DNA from: a virus
Length of the DNA stretch: 24,595 nucleotides
Direction: 5' to 3' (one strand)
Virus record (IMG/VR): IMGVR_UViG_3300028840_003821
Location: 1-24,595 of that record
Part shown: piece after piece, positions 3,147-18,105 of the stretch
How positions within the stretch are numbered: the stretch's first letter is position 1
Layout of the letters: the number at the start of each line of letters is the position of its first letter
The notes under the pieces: generated by a model
Seen by the model: the letters and a program-made list of their open reading frames with translations, nothing else
Databases searched by the model: none
Told to the model about the DNA's origin: nothing
Made by a program: the position numbers and the translations under genes

Positions 3147-5912
3147 ATGGCTGATAAGAGGAGAGGAAAACGCGGTAAAAAGACTAGAGAGGTTGTGGAT
3201 AAAACTATCCATGAATCTGAAAATGTAGTGGTCAAGGTATTAGAGTTTGGCGGGGATAGAAATCCAGACCGGGGTACATCTAAGCAACTTCCCCCAGATC
3301 TTTTTGAGCCGTTGATAGTGAATGGAGAGGTAATTCGTCCTCCTTATAATCCGTTGATGTGGGCGTTACTTTTAGAGCAGAATACCCGGGTCAATAGATG
3401 TGTTCATACTATGGCTCTAAATACGGTGGGCCATGGTTTTGCTTTTGAGTCGATGATCGAGAGCAAGAGTTTCATAAAAAAGAATCGTAAGAATATTGAG
3501 GAAGAGAGAGCCAGGGTAGCTCCATTGTTTAGGTTTCCTAATAATGAACAATCTTTTGAGGAGATTTTAATTCATATCAAGATTGATGAAGAATCTCAGG
3601 GACAGGGATATATGGAGGTGAGCCGGGATGGAAAGGGTGATATTGACGGGTTCTATCATGCCCCTGGGCATACCATTAGGGTCCGGGCTGGTGACATTGA
3701 TGGGTATGTGCAAATGAGGACTACCTATTCCGGGGAGTTATCTTCTTTTCCAGGACAAACTGCCGTGGATGGTGGAGTAAGTAAGGTTTACTTTAAGAGG
3801 TTTGGCGATCCAAGAGTTATTAATAAGGATACGGGTGAGGTAGTTAAAGAAGGTTTACCAATAGAAGATAGGGCCAATGAGTTGATCATGTTTAAGATCT
3901 ATTCTCCACGGTCCTCTTATTACGGGGTACCGAGGTATGTGACTACTGCTCCGGCGATTGCTGGAAATCGTTTGGCTCAGTTAAGGAATGTGAGTTTTTT
4001 TGAGAATGATGCCGTTCCCCGTTTAGCGGTTATAGTGCAGGGAGGTAGACTTGATGCCGAGGCCGTAGAGACAATCAGATCATTTATCGAATCTAAAGGG
4101 AAAGGGGTAATGAATGCCAGCCGGGTAATGATTCTTCAACCTGAGAAAGCAGAGGGTGTGCCGGTTGATGAATCCCAAAGAACGAGAATTGAATTGATGC
4201 CGTTGACCGTAGGGGTAACTGAAGATGCCTCATTTACGCGGTACCTGATGCTGAACAATGAGGATATCAGGGAAGCATTTGGGATAGGTAAAATCTTTTT
4301 GGGAACTGTAGACGATGTGAACCGGGCGTGTTATTCAGATGATACGGAGACTTTAACAAAAGGTGGGTGGAAAAAATTTGAGGAATTGACTGGTGATGAG
4401 GAAGTATTAGCAGTAAATCCTAAGACTGGTGAAGGGGAGTACCTTAAGCCAGATAAACTTTGCGTATATCCATATAAAGGGAAAATGATTGAGGTTGAAA
4501 ATAGGGGGACTTCTTTTAAAGTAACTCCTGATCACAAAGTTCTCTTTAGGTCCGGCACTGATGATAAGTGTTCCTGGAAGGAGAGTACCGCAGAAAAAAT
4601 GGTTGGGTATAAAAGGTTTAGGGTTAGAGTATCGCCTAAAAATGTTAGTAATGGTGATGAACAAGAATTTTTCATTCTTCCTGGTGTAGATGTTAAAAAT
4701 GGAGCTAACGATGTTTGTAAAGAGAGAAATAAAGGGCCTTGGAAGATCCCCATGGAAATGTGGAGTAAATTTATAGGTTATTTTGTTTCAGAGGGGTTTA
4801 TAGGTGACCATGAAAAAAATGGTAATTATGTGATAGGGATTTCTCAGAATGAGGAGGTCTATCCTGAAAAAGTGGAAGAGATAAGGAGTATGCTTTGTGA
4901 TTTTCCTTATACATTTTCAGAGAGTTGTTATGAGGATGGAATGGTTAGATGGACAATTTCTTGGAAAGCCCTCTGGATGTATTTAAATGATAATTGTGGT
5001 AGGGGTGCAATTAATAAGAGATTGCCGGTTGGGTGGAGGAATTGGGATTTTAATTCTTTGGAAAGATTGTTTTGGGCTATGATTGACGGTGATGGACACA
5101 TTTATCCAGATAGGGGTACTATTTCTGGAAATTATTTTAGCATCTCAAAGCAATTGGCTGATGATTTTCAAGAACTTTGTGTCTTGACAAATAGACGTGG
5201 GCAGATAAGGGTAGCGCAAGATCGTAGACCTAACCGTAGAATTGGGTACGTGATTAATTGGGCTGAAAGAGATAGAATTTCTGTTTACCAGGATTCTTGC
5301 AGAGAAGTTGAGTATGATGGTAATGTTCACTGTTTTTCACTTCCAAAACATCATTTTTATGTGACCAGAAGAAATGGAAAGTTGGCAATTCAAGGTAATA
5401 GTGCTTACACTTCAAAGCAAGTAACCACTGAGCAAGTTTTTGAGCCGGAGAGTAAACGATATGAATATAGGATTAATGCCACTATCATGCGGGACTTGAA
5501 TGCTGAGTATACTAGGTTTGTTTTAACGAGACCTAAGACAATCGATTTAACTCAGGAGGCTATGGCCTTTGCTACTCTTGCGGCGGCGGGTGGAATTACT
5601 CCTAATGACATTCGCTCATTGTTAGGGTACGATCCATTTTCCGGTAATTGGGCTGATACTCCGTTACCTCTTATTAAAGAGGGAATTCTTGAGGGCCAGG
5701 ATATGCAACCTCAGACACCGGAGGGAGAAGGGGGCGTGGTTGCCCAGGATGGAGAGGAGGATATGGAATCTAAGGTAGTTTCTTTGGCGGTTTCTAGAGC
5801 TAATAAGGTTTATCGTGATGCTACTGGATTTTCCGGGACTTTGAATCTAATAGCTGAGGGAAAGCCTGATGAAGTCATGAAATCCCTTCAAGAAATAAGT
5901 GAAAAGTCTTGA
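3147..5912 (+). CDS. Portal protein interrupted by an intein
   Basis: The portal forms the dodecameric channel at the head vertex through which DNA enters and to which terminase and neck bind. The extein resembles the lambda/PBSX-type portal family: LFEPLIVNGEVIRPPYNPLMW near the start, then YSPRSSYYGVPRYVTTAPAI and NVSFFENDAVPRLAVIVQGG in the clip/stem region, and FGIGKIFLGTVDDVNRA before the intein. Residues 395-751 are the intein; removal gives VNRA-SAYTSKQVT and a 564-residue portal. A ribosome site (AAGGGAGG) precedes the ATG by a few bases. The C-terminal tail (about 835-870) is acidic and glutamine-rich. Family assignment rests on motifs and on the position between terminase and protease. 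Confidence 0.9.
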   Translation: MADKRRGKRGKKTREVVDKTIHESENVVVKVLEFGGDRNPDRGTSKQLPPDLFEPLIVNGEVIRPPYNPLMWALLLEQNTRVNRCVHTMALNTVGHGFAFESMIESKSFIKKNRKNIEEERARVAPLFRFPNNEQSFEEILIHIKIDEESQGQGYMEVSRDGKGDIDGFYHAPGHTIRVRAGDIDGYVQMRTTYSGELSSFPGQTAVDGGVSKVYFKRFGDPRVINKDTGEVVKEGLPIEDRANELIMFKIYSPRSSYYGVPRYVTTAPAIAGNRLAQLRNVSFFENDAVPRLAVIVQGGRLDAEAVETIRSFIESKGKGVMNASRVMILQPEKAEGVPVDESQRTRIELMPLTVGVTEDASFTRYLMLNNEDIREAFGIGKIFLGTVDDVNRACYSDDTETLTKGGWKKFEELTGDEEVLAVNPKTGEGEYLKPDKLCVYPYKGKMIEVENRGTSFKVTPDHKVLFRSGTDDKCSWKESTAEKMVGYKRFRVRVSPKNVSNGDEQEFFILPGVDVKNGANDVCKERNKGPWKIPMEMWSKFIGYFVSEGFIGDHEKNGNYVIGISQNEEVYPEKVEEIRSMLCDFPYTFSESCYEDGMVRWTISWKALWMYLNDNCGRGAINKRLPVGWRNWDFNSLERLFWAMIDGDGHIYPDRGTISGNYFSISKQLADDFQELCVLTNRRGQIRVAQDRRPNRRIGYVINWAERDRISVYQDSCREVEYDGNVHCFSLPKHHFYVTRRNGKLAIQGNSAYTSKQVTTEQVFEPESKRYEYRINATIMRDLNAEYTRFVLTRPKTIDLTQEAMAFATLAAAGGITPNDIRSLLGYDPFSGNWADTPLPLIKEGILEGQDMQPQTPEGEGGVVAQDGEEDMESKVVSLAVSRANKVYRDATGFSGTLNLIAEGKPDEVMKSLQEISEKS
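4329..5399 (+). mobile_element. Intein with LAGLIDADG (DOD) homing endonuclease inside the portal gene
   Basis: 357 residues from C395 to N751, followed by extein S752. Block A starts CYSDDTETLTKGGWKKFEEL, block B has SFKVTPDHKVLFRS, and the C-terminal blocks read YDGNVHCFSLPKHHFYV then LAIQGN. The penultimate residue is G rather than the usual H, a variant seen in some phage inteins. Two LAGLIDADG-like helices are present: FIGYFVSEG (542-550, acidic E549) and LFWAMIDGDG (641-650, acidic D649), so the nuclease looks intact. It belongs to a different endonuclease class from the terminase intein, so the two were probably acquired separately. The region is more AT-rich than the portal extein. 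Confidence 0.92.
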
Positions 5913-11161: not shown

Positions 11162-11179
11162 TTGAGATGGAGGTATTTC

Positions 11180-11632
11180 ATGGCTAAATTCACGGTAAAA
11201 CGGGAAAATACAAAGTTTGTTGAGTGCCCTTCTGGGTCTAAATATTACTTTGTTGCAGAAAATCCCATCGAGGTTAAGAGTGAGGATGTGGAATACTTCC
11301 GGTCACGTAACAAGGATTTTATAGAGACTGGAGATGAGAATTCTTCTACTTTAGATAGGAAGGGGTCTTTGGCCCCTTCCGATTCTAAGGTTTTGGACTC
11401 TGATTCGATGCACTTGAGTGCATCTGCTCCGAAAAAGGCCAAAAAGGTGAAAAAAGGCTATGATCTTGACAATCTTGAGGTTGATGAGATTATTGAGAAT
11501 GATATGTTCAAGAAGCAGTCAGAGGGTCCATGGACGTGTCCGGTGTGTGGTAAGACGGGACTCCAGACTAAGGGCGGTGTCAGGTCTCATGTAGGGTCAG
11601 GAGCTTGTATTAGGGCGGCTAAGGGAGAGTAA
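11180..11632 (+). CDS. Small structural-type protein with a C-terminal C2HC zinc finger
   Basis: 150 residues. The N-terminal 50 (MAKFTVKRENTKFVECPSGS onward) look like the small beta domain often encoded right after capsid genes. A low-complexity linker (about 52-95) is serine- and lysine-rich and contains the residues MHLSA encoded by palindrome copy 2. The C-terminus carries C120-x2-C123, H137 and C143, a C2HC-type finger. The ATG at 11180 is chosen because GATGGAGGT lies just before it; an in-frame TTG at 11162 has no ribosome site. The stop overlaps the next ATG by one base. The role could be head decoration or nucleic-acid contact during packaging. No firm family. Confidence 0.75.
   Translation: MAKFTVKRENTKFVECPSGSKYYFVAENPIEVKSEDVEYFRSRNKDFIETGDENSSTLDRKGSLAPSDSKVLDSDSMHLSASAPKKAKKVKKGYDLDNLEVDEIIENDMFKKQSEGPWTCPVCGKTGLQTKGGVRSHVGSGACIRAAKGE
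11408..11423. repeat. 16-bp perfect palindrome, copy 2 (ATGCACTTGAGTGCAT)
   Basis: Identical to the copies at 75 and 22112, but inside a coding region, where it encodes MHLSA in the unstructured linker of the zinc-finger protein. The flanks differ from the other copies, so the repeated unit is just the 16 bases. Confidence 0.9.
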
Positions 11633-12612
11633 TGGATTTTAAGTACATTACTCTGACTCGGCTTCGGGATGTGCTTAAAATTTCTGCAACTAACTTGCCC
11701 GATGCCGAGGCTTTGGCTTTGATTGAAGAGATCTCAGAATCTTTGAATAGCTTGACCGGTCAGTTTTTTCAACCAAAAATTGAGTTTCATCCGGCTTCTG
11801 GGAAAGGGGATAGGCTTGTCCATAGGTCAGACTTAAACCCAATTATCAATCTTATATCGATAAGTGTTGATTATGATAAGACATTTGTTAAACCATCAGT
11901 ATGGGAGACAATGTTCGGTATCCGGGGAAGAACTCATGTATACGATATTTCTAGGGTTGAAGTAACCCCCGATTCTGGATATCGTTTAGTTTCCTTGATT
12001 TCTGGGGAATTTCCGGCTGGATCTGGGAATGTGACTTTGAATGGAGTATTTGGATGGCTCCAGAATCGGAAGTTATTTCAAACTGAGTTAGCCGCTGAGT
12101 TAGCGGTGGATGCTACGACAATTACGGTTAATGAGGTTTCCAATTCTACTGGGTGGGTTGAAGTTGGGGATTTTGTAACTATTACGGTTACTGATGCTAC
12201 GGCTTCTAATCCTGCCAGGGTTTATAATGACATTATTAAGGCTATAGATACCTCTGGGCCTAATCCGGTGTTGACCGTTGATAAGGTACAGGACATGGCG
12301 GGGGTATTTCCAATTGCTTCTGGAACTACCGTGAATGTTTATGGGAGGTTTCCCAGAGCGTTGGTTGAAGTCATGGATGCCTTGATTTTGAGAGCGTGGG
12401 AAGAAAGTCCACTGAATCCGAGTGGGTCAGGTGGTAGTGGTAGTATAACGGATAGGTTGATTTCAGAGAAGGTTGACAATTATAGTTACCAGTTGGAATC
12501 AAAGTCAGTTCAATCAAGTAGGTATGGAGGTCTTGGTGCTATTACTGGCTCAGTTCGGTTAGATCAGACGATCAGGCAGTACTCACGTCCTCCTATGGTG
12601 GGGTTTGTATAA
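11632..12612 (+). CDS. Head-tail connector/adaptor-like protein with an inserted beta domain
   Basis: The N-terminal part (ITLTRLRDVLKI, then DAEALALIEEISESLNSLTG) has the helical layout of gp6-like head-tail adaptors that bind under the portal. Strands such as NPIINLISISVD and FPAGSGNVTLNGVFGW follow, and the helical arm returns at PRALVEVMDALILRAWEE. Residues about 154-240 are an extra module with the pattern DATTITVNEVSNSTGWVEVG, a beta fold also suggested in the sheath of this window. The gene starts on an ATG overlapping the previous stop, with AAGGGAGAG upstream. Assignment is by pattern and position after the capsid gene; fold not proven. Confidence 0.7.
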   Translation: MDFKYITLTRLRDVLKISATNLPDAEALALIEEISESLNSLTGQFFQPKIEFHPASGKGDRLVHRSDLNPIINLISISVDYDKTFVKPSVWETMFGIRGRTHVYDISRVEVTPDSGYRLVSLISGEFPAGSGNVTLNGVFGWLQNRKLFQTELAAELAVDATTITVNEVSNSTGWVEVGDFVTITVTDATASNPARVYNDIIKAIDTSGPNPVLTVDKVQDMAGVFPIASGTTVNVYGRFPRALVEVMDALILRAWEESPLNPSGSGGSGSITDRLISEKVDNYSYQLESKSVQSSRYGGLGAITGSVRLDQTIRQYSRPPMVGFV

Positions 12613-13064
12613 TGGGTCGTGGTTGGCCAATGAGGTGGAATCCTAAGCCGGTCAAGATTCGGAGATTGAATCGGACTGCTTCCGTGGGAAATAGCCTATT
12701 GGATGATGATTTTGGGGACGTGTTCGGGGGCGTGGATATACCGTTGGATGGTACAATAGAACTTCAGGCCCAGGTAGCGTATAAAAAGAGGGATGAGCGT
12801 GATTTCGGTCTTGGGGGAGATGCTCTACGGGCTGATGGGCATTTGGCGTTCACTACTGACTACCTTCAAGATGCTGGATATAATCCATTTGGAAGTACCA
12901 TATTGGATAAGGGTGATAGGATAGTGGAGATAGACGGGGTAACCGTGGATTATAGGATCATAGAGTTCAGGCCGGGGGGCCATTTAAAAACGGCTGGTAA
13001 TACTCCCATCCTATTTTTGGCTTACTTTCAGTCTCCTATGGATGAGAATCCGAAGGTTACGTAA
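12612..13064 (+). CDS. Probable head-completion (stopper-like) protein
   Basis: 150 residues. After a basic start (MGRGWPMRWNPKPVKIRRLN) the protein is mostly beta. The later KGDRIVEIDGVTVDYRII followed by LFLAYFQSP fits the small beta-barrel stopper/head-closure proteins encoded after the adaptor. The ATG overlaps the adaptor stop by one base and there is no strong ribosome site, so expression is coupled. No specific family was recognised; the position between the adaptor and the fibre-like cluster is the main argument. Confidence 0.55.
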   Translation: MGRGWPMRWNPKPVKIRRLNRTASVGNSLLDDDFGDVFGGVDIPLDGTIELQAQVAYKKRDERDFGLGGDALRADGHLAFTTDYLQDAGYNPFGSTILDKGDRIVEIDGVTVDYRIIEFRPGGHLKTAGNTPILFLAYFQSPMDENPKVT

Positions 13065-13074
13065 GGGGTGAGTG

Positions 13075-13413
13075 ATGGCTAATCTTAGTAAAGAGTGCGT
13101 TATTCCGGCGGGAAGTCAATTTACCGGAACTAGTGAAACCAACGGTTTGTTTATATTTCAAAGTGTTTCCGGGATTGATATCTATAGAATATCCTTTATT
13201 TTAGGGTCAGAATCAAAAGACTTAACCGTTGAGATTGTCGATAAATATGACAGAGATCGAGGTAAGCCGTATGAAAATTTGGCTTTCGCTAATACTCGTG
13301 TCGATCTGGTCGGGTTGATTTCGTTGGGTCCAGGAGAAAGGCTTAAAGTAACTTCTGCTAGTGCAACGAGTGAGATGAAGGCTTTTATTCTTTACAAGGA
13401 TTTAAAGGGTTAA
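13075..13413 (+). CDS. Hypothetical virion protein, beta-rich
   Basis: 112 residues from the ATG at 13075, preceded by AAGGGGTG; an in-frame GTG three bases earlier sits too close to that site. The sequence alternates short hydrophobic and polar stretches (NGLFIFQSV, IYRISFILG, SKDLTVEIVD, KAFILYKDL), typical of a small jelly-roll or Ig-like virion protein. Cysteine is almost absent and no membrane segment is seen. It leads the adhesin-like cluster and may be a decoration or fibre-anchoring protein. Function not recognised. Confidence 0.6.
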   Translation: MANLSKECVIPAGSQFTGTSETNGLFIFQSVSGIDIYRISFILGSESKDLTVEIVDKYDRDRGKPYENLAFANTRVDLVGLISLGPGERLKVTSASATSEMKAFILYKDLKG

Positions 13414-13417
13414 TAGC

Positions 13418-13837
13418 ATGACTGTAGGATATTACAATTTCATTGAAATTATTGATGGTATTCCAGTTCTTGCTAATGCTGGAGAAGAAGCCATTGAAAC
13501 TAGCAGTTCTTATTTGCTGGATACTACATTCAATTCGGATTCAGGTTGGACGGATTTGGATCTTAGCGGAATTGCTCCTCCTAGAGCTAAGGGTGTTAAG
13601 TTGTATGTTACCGTTAATGAATCAGGGTCCGTAGGAGATGTAAATAGTAAATTTCGCTTAAGAAAAGATAGTACCAAGACCGCTGAATCTGAAATTCGTA
13701 CTATTTATCCACAAGCTACGGGGAGAACTATGGTCGGGACTTTTGAAATTGAATTGGATAGTGATAAACATATTGAGTATCGTGCCCAGCCTCATACGGT
13801 CCTTACGGTTAATATATCCTTGGATGGATGGGCTTGA
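13418..13837 (+). CDS. Adhesin/decoration-like protein built from two shared modules
   Basis: 139 residues. The N-terminus carries VGYYNFIEIIDGIPV, identical to the start of the next gene. From about residue 30 on, the protein matches the C-terminal module of the gene at 16314: SDSGWTDLDLSG against SDSGWITLDLSG, GVKLYVTVNESG against GVKLEVRVQESG, RKDS in both, and IEYRAQPHTVLTV against IEYRAEPDTSLSV. It thus looks like a docking peptide joined to a beta sandwich. The start ATG lies five bases after the previous stop, with only a weak ribosome site. Probably a minor head or neck decoration; the function is inferred from architecture. Confidence 0.65.
   Translation: MTVGYYNFIEIIDGIPVLANAGEEAIETSSSYLLDTTFNSDSGWTDLDLSGIAPPRAKGVKLYVTVNESGSVGDVNSKFRLRKDSTKTAESEIRTIYPQATGRTMVGTFEIELDSDKHIEYRAQPHTVLTVNISLDGWA
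13424..13468 (+). repeat. 45-bp repeat encoding the shared docking peptide, copy A
   Basis: Encodes VGYYNFIEIIDGIPV. It pairs with 13867-13911; the two differ at six positions, all silent. Confidence 0.85.
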
Positions 13838-13857
13838 TTGTTTAAGGGAGTGATTAT

Positions 13858-16329
13858 ATGCCGGTAGTCGGATATTACAATTTTATTGAGATTATAGACG
13901 GCATTCCAGTTTTCGAGGGTGGTGGAGGTGGTGTAACCCTTCCTGAAGTGAAGTCCGAGATAGGTAAATCTATCTCAGACAGGTTAATTCAGGTGTCCCC
14001 TGATTTTTCAACAAGTGATACTTATGGAGAGTATCCTACTATGGGTCAGGGATTATCAAGGGCTAATTCGCTTGCTACCAGTTATGGAGAGCCGTGGGAA
14101 GTGGTTGCCCGTGCTGGAGAATACGCGGAAGAAAATTTATTAATTGGGGATAAGGTGACTTTAAGGGGGGAGAAGTCATCGATATTAAAGGGGGTAGCTA
14201 GTCCTACGGCTGGGAATCCAATTGTTGAGATGAATGGTGATTCGCGGTTGTTGAATATGTATTTTAGGCCGCAAGGTGACAACCCAACTGGATCAATCAT
14301 TAAGGTGAATAACACCAGTATTGGGGATTACCCCATAATCAGTGGAGTTACCGTTATTGCCCTTGTGGAATCAGTTGATTGGCATTCAGTTCTTGAGGTG
14401 AGTGAACTTGGTGTTGGGGTTGTTTTAGTGTGCTTAAATTCGTCTCTTGTGTTTTATAATCCGTCAAATATAGATTATATAATCAAGGTGATAGGAAATT
14501 CCGTTGGATTCTATTTGAACAATGCTCTAATAGGGTACGATGCTGATGCGTTGTACTACCATTCTAATGGGTCTCTTGGATCATTTCAGACATTATATAC
14601 TATTAACGGAGGTCTTTTATTGGATCCCGTAGGTAATTTGCCGGTTCAAACTGGGTCTTATATTGGGGGAGAGGTATCTAATTGTTCCGGTGCATATGAA
14701 GAATTCAGTATTGGTGCTGGGATAGATTCAATTGGATTGACGCCATCTGGTAGTATGGAGCAAGAGCAGTACCCACAATCAGGTGCCTCAAAAGGGACTG
14801 TAAGGGATGCTTTAATAAATATAAAATCTAATGCCATATTTACCCAGAATCAGGCTGATAATAATTCGGCAAATATAGCTATTATGGCGGCTAATATGGA
14901 TTTTAAACTGGCTGAAGCTGGGGGTGAATTCCAGGGAATGTTAGTTGAGGATTTCTCTGATTCTACCGATATTGATGCTACTCCATCAAATTTATACACC
15001 ATTGAGGGTGGATTTGCAAAATCTGAGGTGGAGGTTACCGAGGATGATTTTGAGAGCTATGCTGATACTACGGCATTGAGAGCGGTTTGGGTTCCGAGTG
15101 ATGCAATTCAATCACCTAATACTCTGGAGGTTGGTGGAGCTTATGAGGGTAGTAAATGGATGGAGTGCGTTTATAACGGAGTTCCAAGTAATAATGATTC
15201 TTGGTTAAGAACTTATGCCTCAAATCAAGATTGGTCTACCTTTAAAAAATTTAGCTTGGCACTTAAAGTTTTGTCAACAAATCCATTTGTTCCGTTGACT
15301 TTTATATTGTATGATGCCGATGGGAGACAGGCTTATATACCTCAAGATGATTATGGTGTTGGGGATTGGAGACTATTAGAATTTGATTTCAGTCAATTTG
15401 CCATTGATCCTGGTTTTAAATTTTTTGCAGTTAAGCAAGTACGGATTAGGTTAGGAATAACTGCCGGTATTACTGGATCTTTTGGGGTTGATCTTATTAC
15501 GAGAGAATATACCGGGAAAAATTCTGGAAGAACGGTAGATGCAATGGATTCTACTACGGGATGGGCTGGTACTGGGATTTCGATAGGAGTAGGGACTTCT
15601 AATCCGCGAGAGGGGTCAGGGTATATTACATTTACCGTTCCGGTTGGTGCATTTAGTTTGACTAGAACTTGGCCTGGAAGCGGGACTTATGCGAATATTT
15701 TAAGCACTGATAGTGCGTTTGTTATTTGGGGTAGAGCTAGGAATGTGGTTTCTCCTGGATTTATAAATACCGGAGAATTGGAATTGACTGATGAGAATAG
15801 CCAAGTAATAGCGGCAAAATGCACTAAAGAAATTGTGGGTGAAAAGGTATGGGAATCTACTGATGTCGAATGGGATAAATTAATATTCTATATGACTGAT
15901 ATGGGGAGAAGGGCAGGGTCTAGTCCGTTTGATTTTTCAAAGATAGTAAAAGCCAAGTTTACTTTTGTAGGATCTGGTGGTACATGGGATTGGGATTTAG
16001 ATTTCTTTGAGGCTGGTGATTTAAGTAGAATTCAATCTAAGACATTAGAAATTGGTGAAGATTTCAATCAAGTCAAGATTTTTTGTCCTAATTCCGCTGA
16101 AACTAGGTTTATGATAGATTTAGTGGCAACGGTAGTAGAGACAGATCCTTTTGATTGGAATCATGAGGCTGGTTTTGCAGGCAGTACTCAGTTCGGGTTA
16201 AGGTCTGATGACTTTGGTGATTGGTTGGATTTAGAATGGGTTGGTTCTACTAAAGGTGTGAGATATAGAATTCTTAGTGAGGATAAAAATTTATATGACG
16301 GGGTATCTATACTTTGGAGAAATATTTAA
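13858..16329 (+). CDS. Large fibre/adhesin-like virion protein
   Basis: 823 residues. The first 18 residues repeat the docking peptide of the previous gene, followed by a glycine run. Residues about 45-125 resemble the opening of a pectate-lyase-type beta-helix (YPTMGQGLSRANSLATSYGE then VVARAGEYAEENLLIGDKVTLRG), and repetitive short strands follow to about 290. A helical, perhaps trimerising stretch lies near 315-360. From about 395 two carbohydrate-binding-like jelly-roll segments appear: DDFESYADTTALRAVW to about 560, and one starting near TVDAMDSTTGWAG. The C-terminus (NLYDGVSILWRNI) is beta. An AAGGGAGTG ribosome site precedes the ATG. Likely binds a surface glycan, but lytic residues were not identified. 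Confidence 0.7.
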   Translation: MPVVGYYNFIEIIDGIPVFEGGGGGVTLPEVKSEIGKSISDRLIQVSPDFSTSDTYGEYPTMGQGLSRANSLATSYGEPWEVVARAGEYAEENLLIGDKVTLRGEKSSILKGVASPTAGNPIVEMNGDSRLLNMYFRPQGDNPTGSIIKVNNTSIGDYPIISGVTVIALVESVDWHSVLEVSELGVGVVLVCLNSSLVFYNPSNIDYIIKVIGNSVGFYLNNALIGYDADALYYHSNGSLGSFQTLYTINGGLLLDPVGNLPVQTGSYIGGEVSNCSGAYEEFSIGAGIDSIGLTPSGSMEQEQYPQSGASKGTVRDALINIKSNAIFTQNQADNNSANIAIMAANMDFKLAEAGGEFQGMLVEDFSDSTDIDATPSNLYTIEGGFAKSEVEVTEDDFESYADTTALRAVWVPSDAIQSPNTLEVGGAYEGSKWMECVYNGVPSNNDSWLRTYASNQDWSTFKKFSLALKVLSTNPFVPLTFILYDADGRQAYIPQDDYGVGDWRLLEFDFSQFAIDPGFKFFAVKQVRIRLGITAGITGSFGVDLITREYTGKNSGRTVDAMDSTTGWAGTGISIGVGTSNPREGSGYITFTVPVGAFSLTRTWPGSGTYANILSTDSAFVIWGRARNVVSPGFINTGELELTDENSQVIAAKCTKEIVGEKVWESTDVEWDKLIFYMTDMGRRAGSSPFDFSKIVKAKFTFVGSGGTWDWDLDFFEAGDLSRIQSKTLEIGEDFNQVKIFCPNSAETRFMIDLVATVVETDPFDWNHEAGFAGSTQFGLRSDDFGDWLDLEWVGSTKGVRYRILSEDKNLYDGVSILWRNI
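13867..13911 (+). repeat. 45-bp repeat encoding the shared docking peptide, copy B
   Basis: Same 15 residues as 13424-13468 with six synonymous substitutions and no amino-acid change. Confidence 0.85.
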
Positions 16330-17048
16330 ATGATAAGGATTTAGTTTCAAATGTCATTGGAGAATTGGAGATAAGCGTGGGAGTTGAAAGTAAAAAAAGA
16401 GATGTTACGGTTGGAGCACAATTTCCTATTGTGGCTAATAGTGGGTTAAATGTAACTATTTTGGGTGGTAATGTAAACAAAAGTAATTGTTCTTGTGCGG
16501 TTGACTCAAAGAGTTTAGCATTGACCGCTAATTCATCCAATTATGTATATATTGATTGGGCTACTAATATTATATCTTTTAACACAACGGGTTTTCCAAG
16601 TTGTTGTATTGCGTTGTGGGAGATTGTTACTGATGCTTCATCCGTAACTGCAAAGATTGATAATAGATCAGTTTTGAGAGCATCAATGCACAGTAAAATT
16701 ATGACTAAAAGTTCTTGGTTATTGAATCAGGCTTTTACTTCTGATTCTGGGTGGATAACTCTTGATTTAAGTGGTGATGCTCCATGTGGGGCCACTGGAG
16801 TAAAACTGGAGGTTAGAGTGCAAGAATCCGGTACTCCAGGTAATTCTGTTAAGTTTTCTTGTAGGAAAGATAGCTCTGAATCCGGTGCTTCTGAGTCTCA
16901 GTGTATTTGGCCTCAGATTTCCGGGGCCACACATTCAAGGTTGATGGGAATCGGATTGGATGATAATCAGTGTATAGAGTATCGGGCAGAGCCGGATACT
17001 TCATTGTCAGTGTCGGTTGGTTTGTCTGGATGGGAATTTGGGGGGTGA
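16314..17048 (+). CDS. Fibre-tip-like protein, two beta modules
   Basis: Up to 244 residues. A first module (about 30-130) has a receptor-binding-protein pattern: strands, then NYVYIDWATNIISF, CCIALWEIVTD and a final KIDNRSVLRA, as in many phage fibre-tip proteins. The second module (about 134-240) matches the protein at 13418 (see that entry). The start is uncertain: a TTG at 16314 overlaps the end of the large fibre gene by 16 bases and has GGGGT about ten bases upstream, while a GTG at 16377 has GGAG at normal spacing and would lose 21 residues. It lies in the -1 frame relative to the fibre gene. It is rich in cysteine for a fibre (five in the first module). Confidence 0.65.
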   Translation: MEKYLNDKDLVSNVIGELEISVGVESKKRDVTVGAQFPIVANSGLNVTILGGNVNKSNCSCAVDSKSLALTANSSNYVYIDWATNIISFNTTGFPSCCIALWEIVTDASSVTAKIDNRSVLRASMHSKIMTKSSWLLNQAFTSDSGWITLDLSGDAPCGATGVKLEVRVQESGTPGNSVKFSCRKDSSESGASESQCIWPQISGATHSRLMGIGLDDNQCIEYRAEPDTSLSVSVGLSGWEFGG

Positions 17049-17052
17049 AAAG

Positions 17053-17421
17053 TTGAAAAGAATTTATATTTCTATGGTAGTAGTTTTATGTTGTGGTTGC
17101 ACTGATCCGGTTGGCACTGCTAGGGCTATTGAGGAGCCTTTTTGGGCTAATATTAGGGTAATATTAGAGTACGGTGGATTTCCGGCGGTAATACTCTTAT
17201 TTGGATATTTGTATTTACGTAGTCTCATGAAGGAGTATGGAAAACAATTAGCTTCTATGCAAGTTCAAGTTGCAAAACAGCAAGAGGCAATGAATACCAT
17301 CATGATCAACAACACGGAAGCCCTAGCACGATTAGGTACTGCTATGATGATGGGGTGCCCGTTAATTCGTAACCAACTTACTCTTGAGGCAGGTGAAAAT
17401 GAAACGGAAAAAAGTGGGTAA
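17053..17421 (+). CDS. Small membrane protein with lipobox-like signal and one transmembrane segment (holin/spanin-like?)
   Basis: 122 residues from a TTG at 17053 behind GGGGGTGA. The N-terminus (KRIYISMVVVLCCGC) looks like a lipoprotein signal with C16 as a possible modified cysteine, although the lipobox position -3 is C rather than L. Residues 41-55 (GGFPAVILLFGYLYL) form a transmembrane helix, and 56-90 a charged amphipathic, coiled-coil-like stretch. The layout after the signal (amphipathic helix, one TM, charged tail) recalls small phage holin-like proteins of the BhlA type. Finding it amid structural genes is unusual. Lysis, membrane-anchoring and superinfection roles are all possible; the function is a guess. 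Confidence 0.55.
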   Translation: MKRIYISMVVVLCCGCTDPVGTARAIEEPFWANIRVILEYGGFPAVILLFGYLYLRSLMKEYGKQLASMQVQVAKQQEAMNTIMINNTEALARLGTAMMMGCPLIRNQLTLEAGENETEKSG

Positions 17422-17626
17422 TGATAGAACCCCTGAATTGGAAAATTCTCTTGATGATCATTATAAGGCCATGCGTATTTTCAGGAAACTTCCAGAAGGA
17501 GAGTTTACGGTGAAAAGCATGGATGAAATTCAATCGATTATAGACGAGAAAAAAGAGGTTGTTCAAGGCCAAAATGGGGGAAAGTTTGGGAAGTTAATTA
17601 AGATCATTTTCAAAGGGAGAAAGTGA
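17399..17626 (+). CDS. Small basic hypothetical protein
   Basis: 75 residues from the ATG at 17399, behind GAGGCAGGTGA; it overlaps the end of the membrane-protein gene by 23 bases in another frame. The sequence starts MKRKKVGNDRTPELENSLDD and has a helical middle and a basic hydrophobic end (KFGKLIKIIFKGRK) that could contact membrane or nucleic acid. Its stop overlaps the next ATG by one base. No family recognised. Earlier in-frame TTG (17384) and GTG (17393) starts cannot be excluded. Confidence 0.55.
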   Translation: MKRKKVGNDRTPELENSLDDHYKAMRIFRKLPEGEFTVKSMDEIQSIIDEKKEVVQGQNGGKFGKLIKIIFKGRK

Positions 17627-18105
17627 TGCCAGGGATTGTTTCCATAAAAAAATTTGGTCCATGGGCCGCGTTTTTGGCGGTACCCAGAAAAGCCAGGAAA
17701 GTGCTTCATCAGGCCGTGGAGAGTACAGTCAATAAGCAAGCTCAGTCTTTGGGTGATCAAATAAAGAGGACTATCCAATCTGGGGGGGCTGGTGGTCCTG
17801 CATTAAGTCCTATTACCAGGGCTAAAAAGGGGCATGGTACAAAATTAGTTGATTCTAATGAGTTGGCTTCTAGTATAGAGGTAACCCCGGCTCAGACAAA
17901 TGGCCAGGATGGTTTTGTGGGCATTCCCAAGGGCCGTGGACATAGGGGAGGGCTATCTTTGGAGCAATTGGCGGCTATCCATGAGTTTGGTACCGCAAGA
18001 ATACCGGCCCGGCCATTTATAGGGCCTACGTTGAAAAAATTTGTGCCGAAGTTACAAAAATCAGTGATAAAGGTATGGGATAAGTCAGTAAAAGGATTGA
18101 TGTGA
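17626..18105 (+). CDS. HK97 gp10-like neck/tail-completion protein
   Basis: 159 residues. The diagnostic stretch near the C-terminus, LAAIHEFGTARIPARPFIGP, matches the EFG...ARPF signature of the gp10-like putative tail-component family, which sits at the head-tail joint. The N-terminal half is basic and helical (PRKARKVLHQAVESTVNKQA), with a glycine-rich loop after it. The ATG at 17626 overlaps the previous TGA, with AAAGGGAG upstream. It begins the tail part of the gene order and is followed by a coupled gene. Family confidence is good; the precise place in the particle is inferred. Confidence 0.8.
   Translation: MPGIVSIKKFGPWAAFLAVPRKARKVLHQAVESTVNKQAQSLGDQIKRTIQSGGAGGPALSPITRAKKGHGTKLVDSNELASSIEVTPAQTNGQDGFVGIPKGRGHRGGLSLEQLAAIHEFGTARIPARPFIGPTLKKFVPKLQKSVIKVWDKSVKGLM

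Follow-up and report, generated by a model that had tools for sequence, protein, structure and literature searches.

A 15-residue N-terminal peptide carried by two adjacent genes in the head/neck block of a contractile-tailed phage is a probable docking anchor

Why do two neighbouring phage genes start with the same 15 residues, each time in front of a different body? The question arises from the window analysed here, the whole 24.6-kb stretch (24,595 nt) of virus record IMGVR_UViG_3300028840_003821, where the two copies and the adjoining linker were located as follows.

13424-13468, + strand: putative anchor peptide, copy 1, VGYYNFIEIIDGIPV, residues 3-17 of the 139-aa gene 13418-13837
13867-13911, + strand: putative anchor peptide, copy 2, VGYYNFIEIIDGIPV, residues 4-18 of the 823-aa gene 13858-16329
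13912-13932, + strand: linker FEGGGGG behind copy 2, assigned from the sequence; Gly-rich linkers also follow the peptide in the related phages L004, L005 and L029

Silent divergence of the two peptide copies

A preliminary description of this DNA had reported two 15-residue copies with six silent differences, and both position and count proved exact. The copies differ at 6 of 45 bases, all six of them silent third positions (in codons for V, F, E, I, D, and G), and no residue is changed. Both ORFs (13418-13837 and 13858-16329) begin with ATG preceded by a Shine-Dalgarno-like AAGGG. The DNA likeness between the two genes drops on both sides of the peptide, which is preceded by MT in the shorter and by MPV in the longer protein, and followed by LANAGEE versus FEGGGGG. 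No further match to VGYYNFIEIIDGIPV with up to eight substitutions was found in the six frames of the window.

The silent divergence of the copies (pS) was 0.62 without any replacement, a value that is based on approximately 9.7 synonymous sites with a standard error near 0.16 and places the silent sites near saturation. For six random point mutations in the peptide stretch, the probability of an all-silent outcome was 1e-4 to 4e-4, depending on the transition bias, and is indicative because the 15-residue limits were drawn where the residues agree. Fresh duplication and chance as origins of the copies were ruled out by this probability and the silent-only drift at pS 0.62. Between phages, silent divergence amounted to 0.65-0.86 in the stretches compared, close to that of the window copies, and 7-9 of the 15 peptide residues differ between this phage and L004/L005. 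Two paralogous domains within the window (the body of 13418-13837 and the C-terminus of 16314-17048) exhibited a silent divergence of 0.70 at a protein identity of only 49%. Since the pS of the copies is near the between-phage level while their residues are unchanged, both must have kept one and the same phage-specific sequence over a long period. Thus, the duplication is old, as the preliminary description had assumed, and the purifying selection that it considered for the peptide is borne out by the purely silent divergence. The simplest cause of the shared residues is a common partner.

Head/neck setting and related phages

PHROGs matches to portal, capsid protein, neck protein, tail sheath, tail tube, and baseplate hub were obtained in the window; the phage is therefore contractile-tailed. 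The L004 homologue of 11632-12612 matched a head-tail adaptor family. Because the two peptide genes are placed between this adaptor/closure block and the neck gene 17623-18105, they are assigned to the head/neck part of the structural module.

Several further features of the module were recorded. The terminase (98-2869, 923 aa) and portal (3147-5912, 921 aa) genes contain large insertions resembling inteins; the terminase insertion matches HNH endonucleases, and the portal insertion opens with CYSDDTETLTKGG and closes with HFYVTRRNGKLAIQGN. Terminase and portal of L005 are short forms (596 and 556 aa). The protein encoded after the capsid gene (window 11177-11632) has a zinc-finger-like C-terminal motif, CPVCGKTGLQTKGGVRSHVGSGAC, that is kept in the relatives. 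A lipoprotein-like small membrane protein is encoded amid the structural genes (window 17053-17421, L004 16123-16563, L005 16646-17047), and its family has a conserved YGGxPAVILLFGYLYLRSLMKEYG segment with 57-70% identity.

Related phages were retrieved from IMG/VR by capsid-protein searches (79-100, 59, 51, and 42-45% identity). The peptide was not found at other N-termini within the window; in these relatives, diverged forms (EGFFNYIVIEDGVPV, EGFFNYVIIEDGVVV, and IDYDAFKVILDGVLL) were found at the start of fibre genes at the same place of the locus; the genes directly follow a small conserved protein whose window counterpart is 13072-13413. In L004 (and L007) as well as in L005, a single peptide-bearing gene was found, and EGFFNYVIIEDGVVVAPGGGGG and EGFFNYIVIEDGVPVAIGSGGG open fibres of 566-567 aa; the fibre gene of L006 is identical to that of L005. 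In L029 (59% capsid identity), IDYDAFKVILDGVLLGTGGGGGG opens a 565-aa fibre. With leave-one-out profiles that omitted the tested phage, the peptide was re-found at rank 1-2 of 23,950-29,378 six-frame positions per phage, including the window peptide (rank 1-2 of 26,023). The pattern across phages consists of aromatics, followed by I/V-x-I/V-x-DG-I/V-x-V/L and a Gly-rich linker, and its N-terminal place is constant. Free variation in relatives, which would have spoken against a conserved function, was thus half seen: 7-9 of 15 positions do change, but the changes follow this pattern and the peptide keeps its N-terminal position throughout.

Two more relatives gave tentative matches. In L033, the 10-residue core of MGMIKIIDGVTELG ranked 3 of 29,008 and was not significant with 13 residues; in L035, NAVQIQGIPV near the fibre N-terminus ranked 5 with a 10-residue core and was lost with 13. 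By sequence alone both matches are weak, that of L035 being the weaker, and it is their place alone that lends them weight. When all of IMG/VR was scanned with a degenerate DNA pattern, only contigs of this clade were retrieved, with one match each, and three matches in a cellular genome collection were not at the start of fibre genes. A widespread motif was ruled out, as the degenerate scans found the peptide only in this clade. In L004, L005, and L029, the peptide is present on one gene only; its presence on two proteins is seen in this one genome.

The two peptide-bearing genes and a third gene related to one of them are as follows.

13858-16329, + strand: 823-aa putative fibre with anchor peptide, glycine linker, and long body, encoded where L004, L005, L029, L033, and L035 have their fibre genes
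13418-13837, + strand: 139-aa gene with anchor peptide and one beta-rich domain, 49% identical over 127 aa (E 4e-33) to the C-terminus of 16314-17048
16314-17048, + strand: gene with a C-terminal domain paralogous to the body of 13418-13837, assigned by sequence comparison

No significant homologues of either peptide-bearing protein were detected in IMG/VR, INPHARED, Pfam, PHROGs, or PDB sequences. When whole-fibre profiles were compared with the window fibre, only peptide and glycine linker aligned (L004/L005, E 7e-4; L029/L033, E 0.06), and the fibre bodies of both profiles gave no alignment beyond them. Among the relatives, fibres of different lineages have mainly their C-terminal parts in common. 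As far as these alignments tell, anchor and body evolve apart, and the body behind the peptide is exchanged. The fibres of L004 and L005 have two tandem repeats of ~38 residues (F/VxDxGxxxGxAxILDxxGxG...) between linker and body (residues about 24-105), which are missing from the window fibre.

Comparison within the window marks the short gene 13418-13837 as a chimera, in which the peptide is joined to a domain of the kind encoded two genes further downstream; the peptide is therefore located on two unrelated bodies in one genome. No IMG/VR relatives of this domain were found, and the body of the short protein has no recognisable relation to the small proteins of L004, L005, or L033. Its AlphaFold model (mean pLDDT 48.6) was too poor to use and contained strands at low confidence. 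One loose, sub-threshold match of the short protein was to a Vibrio phage (E 3). The proposal of a portable tag in the preliminary description agrees with these results: the peptide behaves as a portable N-terminal anchor, since the same kind of peptide stands before unrelated bodies and the short gene combines it with a domain paralogous to that of another gene.

Every relative encodes, after the fibre, a member of a ~70-aa family (YDYTK... LDAGNKTILDGIIA) that the window lacks, gene 16314-17048 being present instead.

~70-aa YDYTK family members: L004 15311-15559, L005 15196-15864, L029 12163-12378, L033 14354-14569, L035 16890-17093

The L005 member has an extra C-terminal domain (222 aa). 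The family may represent another small anchor module.

A predicted jelly-roll protein as candidate socket

Directly upstream of the first peptide gene lies the gene of a small protein that is the best candidate for the common partner.

13072-13413, + strand: candidate socket, 113-aa protein of a predicted jelly-roll family, directly upstream of the peptide gene; the fold was predicted for the L033 member

Using a profile, the family was found in the window, L004, L005, L029, L033, and L035, and each time the fibre or peptide gene follows directly. It was absent by profile from L031, L034, and L036-L039, which have no fibre gene between the closure and neck genes. Thus, the six lineages with a fibre at this place have the family and the six without it lack it; L030 was left out of this count as it ends too early. 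In Streptomyces phage LukeCage (a capsid relative, about 31%), no fibre is annotated after the capsid gene and no jelly-roll profile match was obtained.

The L033 member, not the window protein itself, was modelled as a beta-sandwich (residues 1-112, pLDDT mostly 75-86). The best fold match of this model was the cement protein of Helicobacter phages KHP40/KHP30 (PDB 7dou, 7dn2), with Z 9.9, rmsd 2.6, 103 aligned residues, and 11% identity to the trimeric KHP40 protein, and other jelly-rolls, several of them unrelated, lay within 1 Z unit of it, the pentameric phage protein YomS among the matches with Z 9.2. In L033, the jelly-roll family protein is fused in frame to the peptide-like MGMIKIIDGVTELG and a small domain (12137-12862); by eye, no Shine-Dalgarno-like sequence precedes the internal ATG. 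The neighbouring L033 fibre is without anchor, and its homology to that of L029 begins at residue 57 (30%, E 1e-63). The model of the fused protein was reliable only in the jelly-roll part and gave no placement of the peptide on it. We tentatively propose the 13072-13413 product as the socket, an assignment slightly less likely than not.

Docking model, alternatives, and known systems

Two head/neck appendages probably share this peptide as their N-terminal docking anchor. We infer its presence in the virion, its binding to a common site, the identity of the socket, the stoichiometry, and a co-evolution of peptide and socket. The long fibre (13858-16329) and the short one-domain protein (13418-13837) would both attach through the peptide, most likely as non-covalent oligomers, to one kind of site, located on either the head or the head-tail neck. 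The best socket candidate is the jelly-roll, cement-like 13072-13413 product, by itself or in combination with capsid or neck proteins. The peptide would insert into the socket, and the flexible linker, Gly-rich in the fibre, would let the body project; fibre and short protein would then share, or compete for, equivalent sites. The need for both proteins to fit the proposed single socket would keep the residues of the two copies identical and leave only their codons free to drift. Between phages, the peptide would change and the fibre body could be replaced wholesale. A self-contained head/neck system, in which a swappable plug moves among fibre, one-domain protein, and socket fusion on a jelly-roll socket and mixed appendages compete, is conceivable but on the unlikely side.

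Instead of the jelly-roll, the neck/head-closure ring (e.g. the product of 11632-12612 or that of 12612-13064) could be the docking site, which would make the two proteins neck fibres or whiskers. The location of their genes between the adaptor/closure block and neck gene 17623-18105 is compatible with this, and lactococcal neck passage structure proteins, encoded in the head-neck region, keep a near-identical N-terminus while the body is exchanged (PMC10684548). However, adaptor/closure genes are also present in the fibre-less L031, L034, and L036-L039 and therefore, unlike the jelly-roll gene, do not accompany the peptide; we consider neck docking rather unlikely. A peptide acting as co-oligomerisation strand, either forming hetero-oligomers of short protein and fibre or nucleating trimers, would make contact to the particle unnecessary. 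Identical hydrophobic, strand-like peptides within one genome are in line with such a role, and relatives with a single peptide gene could make homo-oligomers. The fibre would then need another attachment, yet peptide and linker are the sole N-terminal part common with its counterparts, and the adjoining jelly-roll gene would be left unexplained; this role is clearly unlikely.

Instead of a shared partner, recurrent recombination, either of one gene with the other or with a relative, might account for the identity of the residues; repair by recombination had been offered in the preliminary description next to selection. Phage structural genes are mosaic and the short gene is itself a chimera, but such repair is not needed: DNA copying between the two genes would have erased the silent differences as well, yet pS is 0.62. 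Moreover, the DNA likeness stops at the peptide edges, and a relative acting as donor would itself have to possess this peptide, which merely shifts the constraint. Recombination is accordingly very unlikely as the cause. Even less credible is a role in leading, targeting, or cleavage, with the peptide absent from the mature virion. The extreme N-terminal position in both proteins would suit it, but by eye there is neither a basic start nor the long hydrophobic core typical of signal peptides, a flexible linker follows the peptide as in appendage anchors, and the constraint acts on residues, not on bases.

The docking anchor favoured here resembles several known systems. In the dual receptor-binding proteins of phages K1-5, K1E, and SP6, an N-terminal hepta- and undecapeptide bind the adapter gp37, and short N-terminal anchor peptides were modelled for Klebsiella KP32 and KP34 viruses (PMC6872550). 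As in the K1-5/SP6/KP34 kind, a group-specific N-terminal peptide (seven to a few tens of residues) precedes exchangeable bodies, and two putative appendage proteins are encoded. Unlike K1-5/SP6/KP32, where the tail and an adapter or T4gp10-like domain are involved, the genes here belong to the head/neck block and the peptide is identical on both proteins. No T4gp10-like or gp37-like adapter domain was found by Pfam/PHROGs in the neighbouring proteins of the window, which is a fragment and in which distant versions could be missed. The crAss001 head fibres gp21 and gp29 are anchored through N-terminal residues 1-38 and 1-58 in a pocket of capsid and auxiliary protein (PMC10172136). Both systems comprise two different appendages with short N-terminal anchors, putative ones in the present case; the crAss001 N-termini differ and occupy different hexon pockets, whereas those studied here are identical, and no sequence relation was found. 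Unlike in the neck passage proteins, the conserved part comprises only ~15 residues plus linker, and no sequence relation was detected; neither peptide protein matched neck passage structure or neck fibre families in PHROGs, Pfam, or INPHARED. In adenovirus, a short aromatic-rich N-terminal fibre peptide with a flexible linker plugs into the jelly-roll penton base vertex protein. The likeness to this fibre tail peptide is an analogy, and no relation is claimed.

By analogy, the system would work like these N-terminal anchors, and no homology to the K1-5/SP6, crAss001, or neck passage systems was detected. It is set apart by identical plugs on a fibre and a one-domain protein, by the co-travelling jelly-roll gene, and by a location among the head/neck genes of a contractile-tailed phage. 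The locus belongs to a clade of contractile phages whose appendages have no match in current family libraries, and it offers a candidate for a minimal natural plug and socket (15 residues and a 113-aa protein). With two copies in one genome whose residues are kept the same although silent sites are near saturation, it constitutes a clean natural experiment. If the socket is confirmed, the peptide would provide a small tag with which proteins could be attached to such particles, and the locus would show how copying of the plug alone gives a phage its second appendage.
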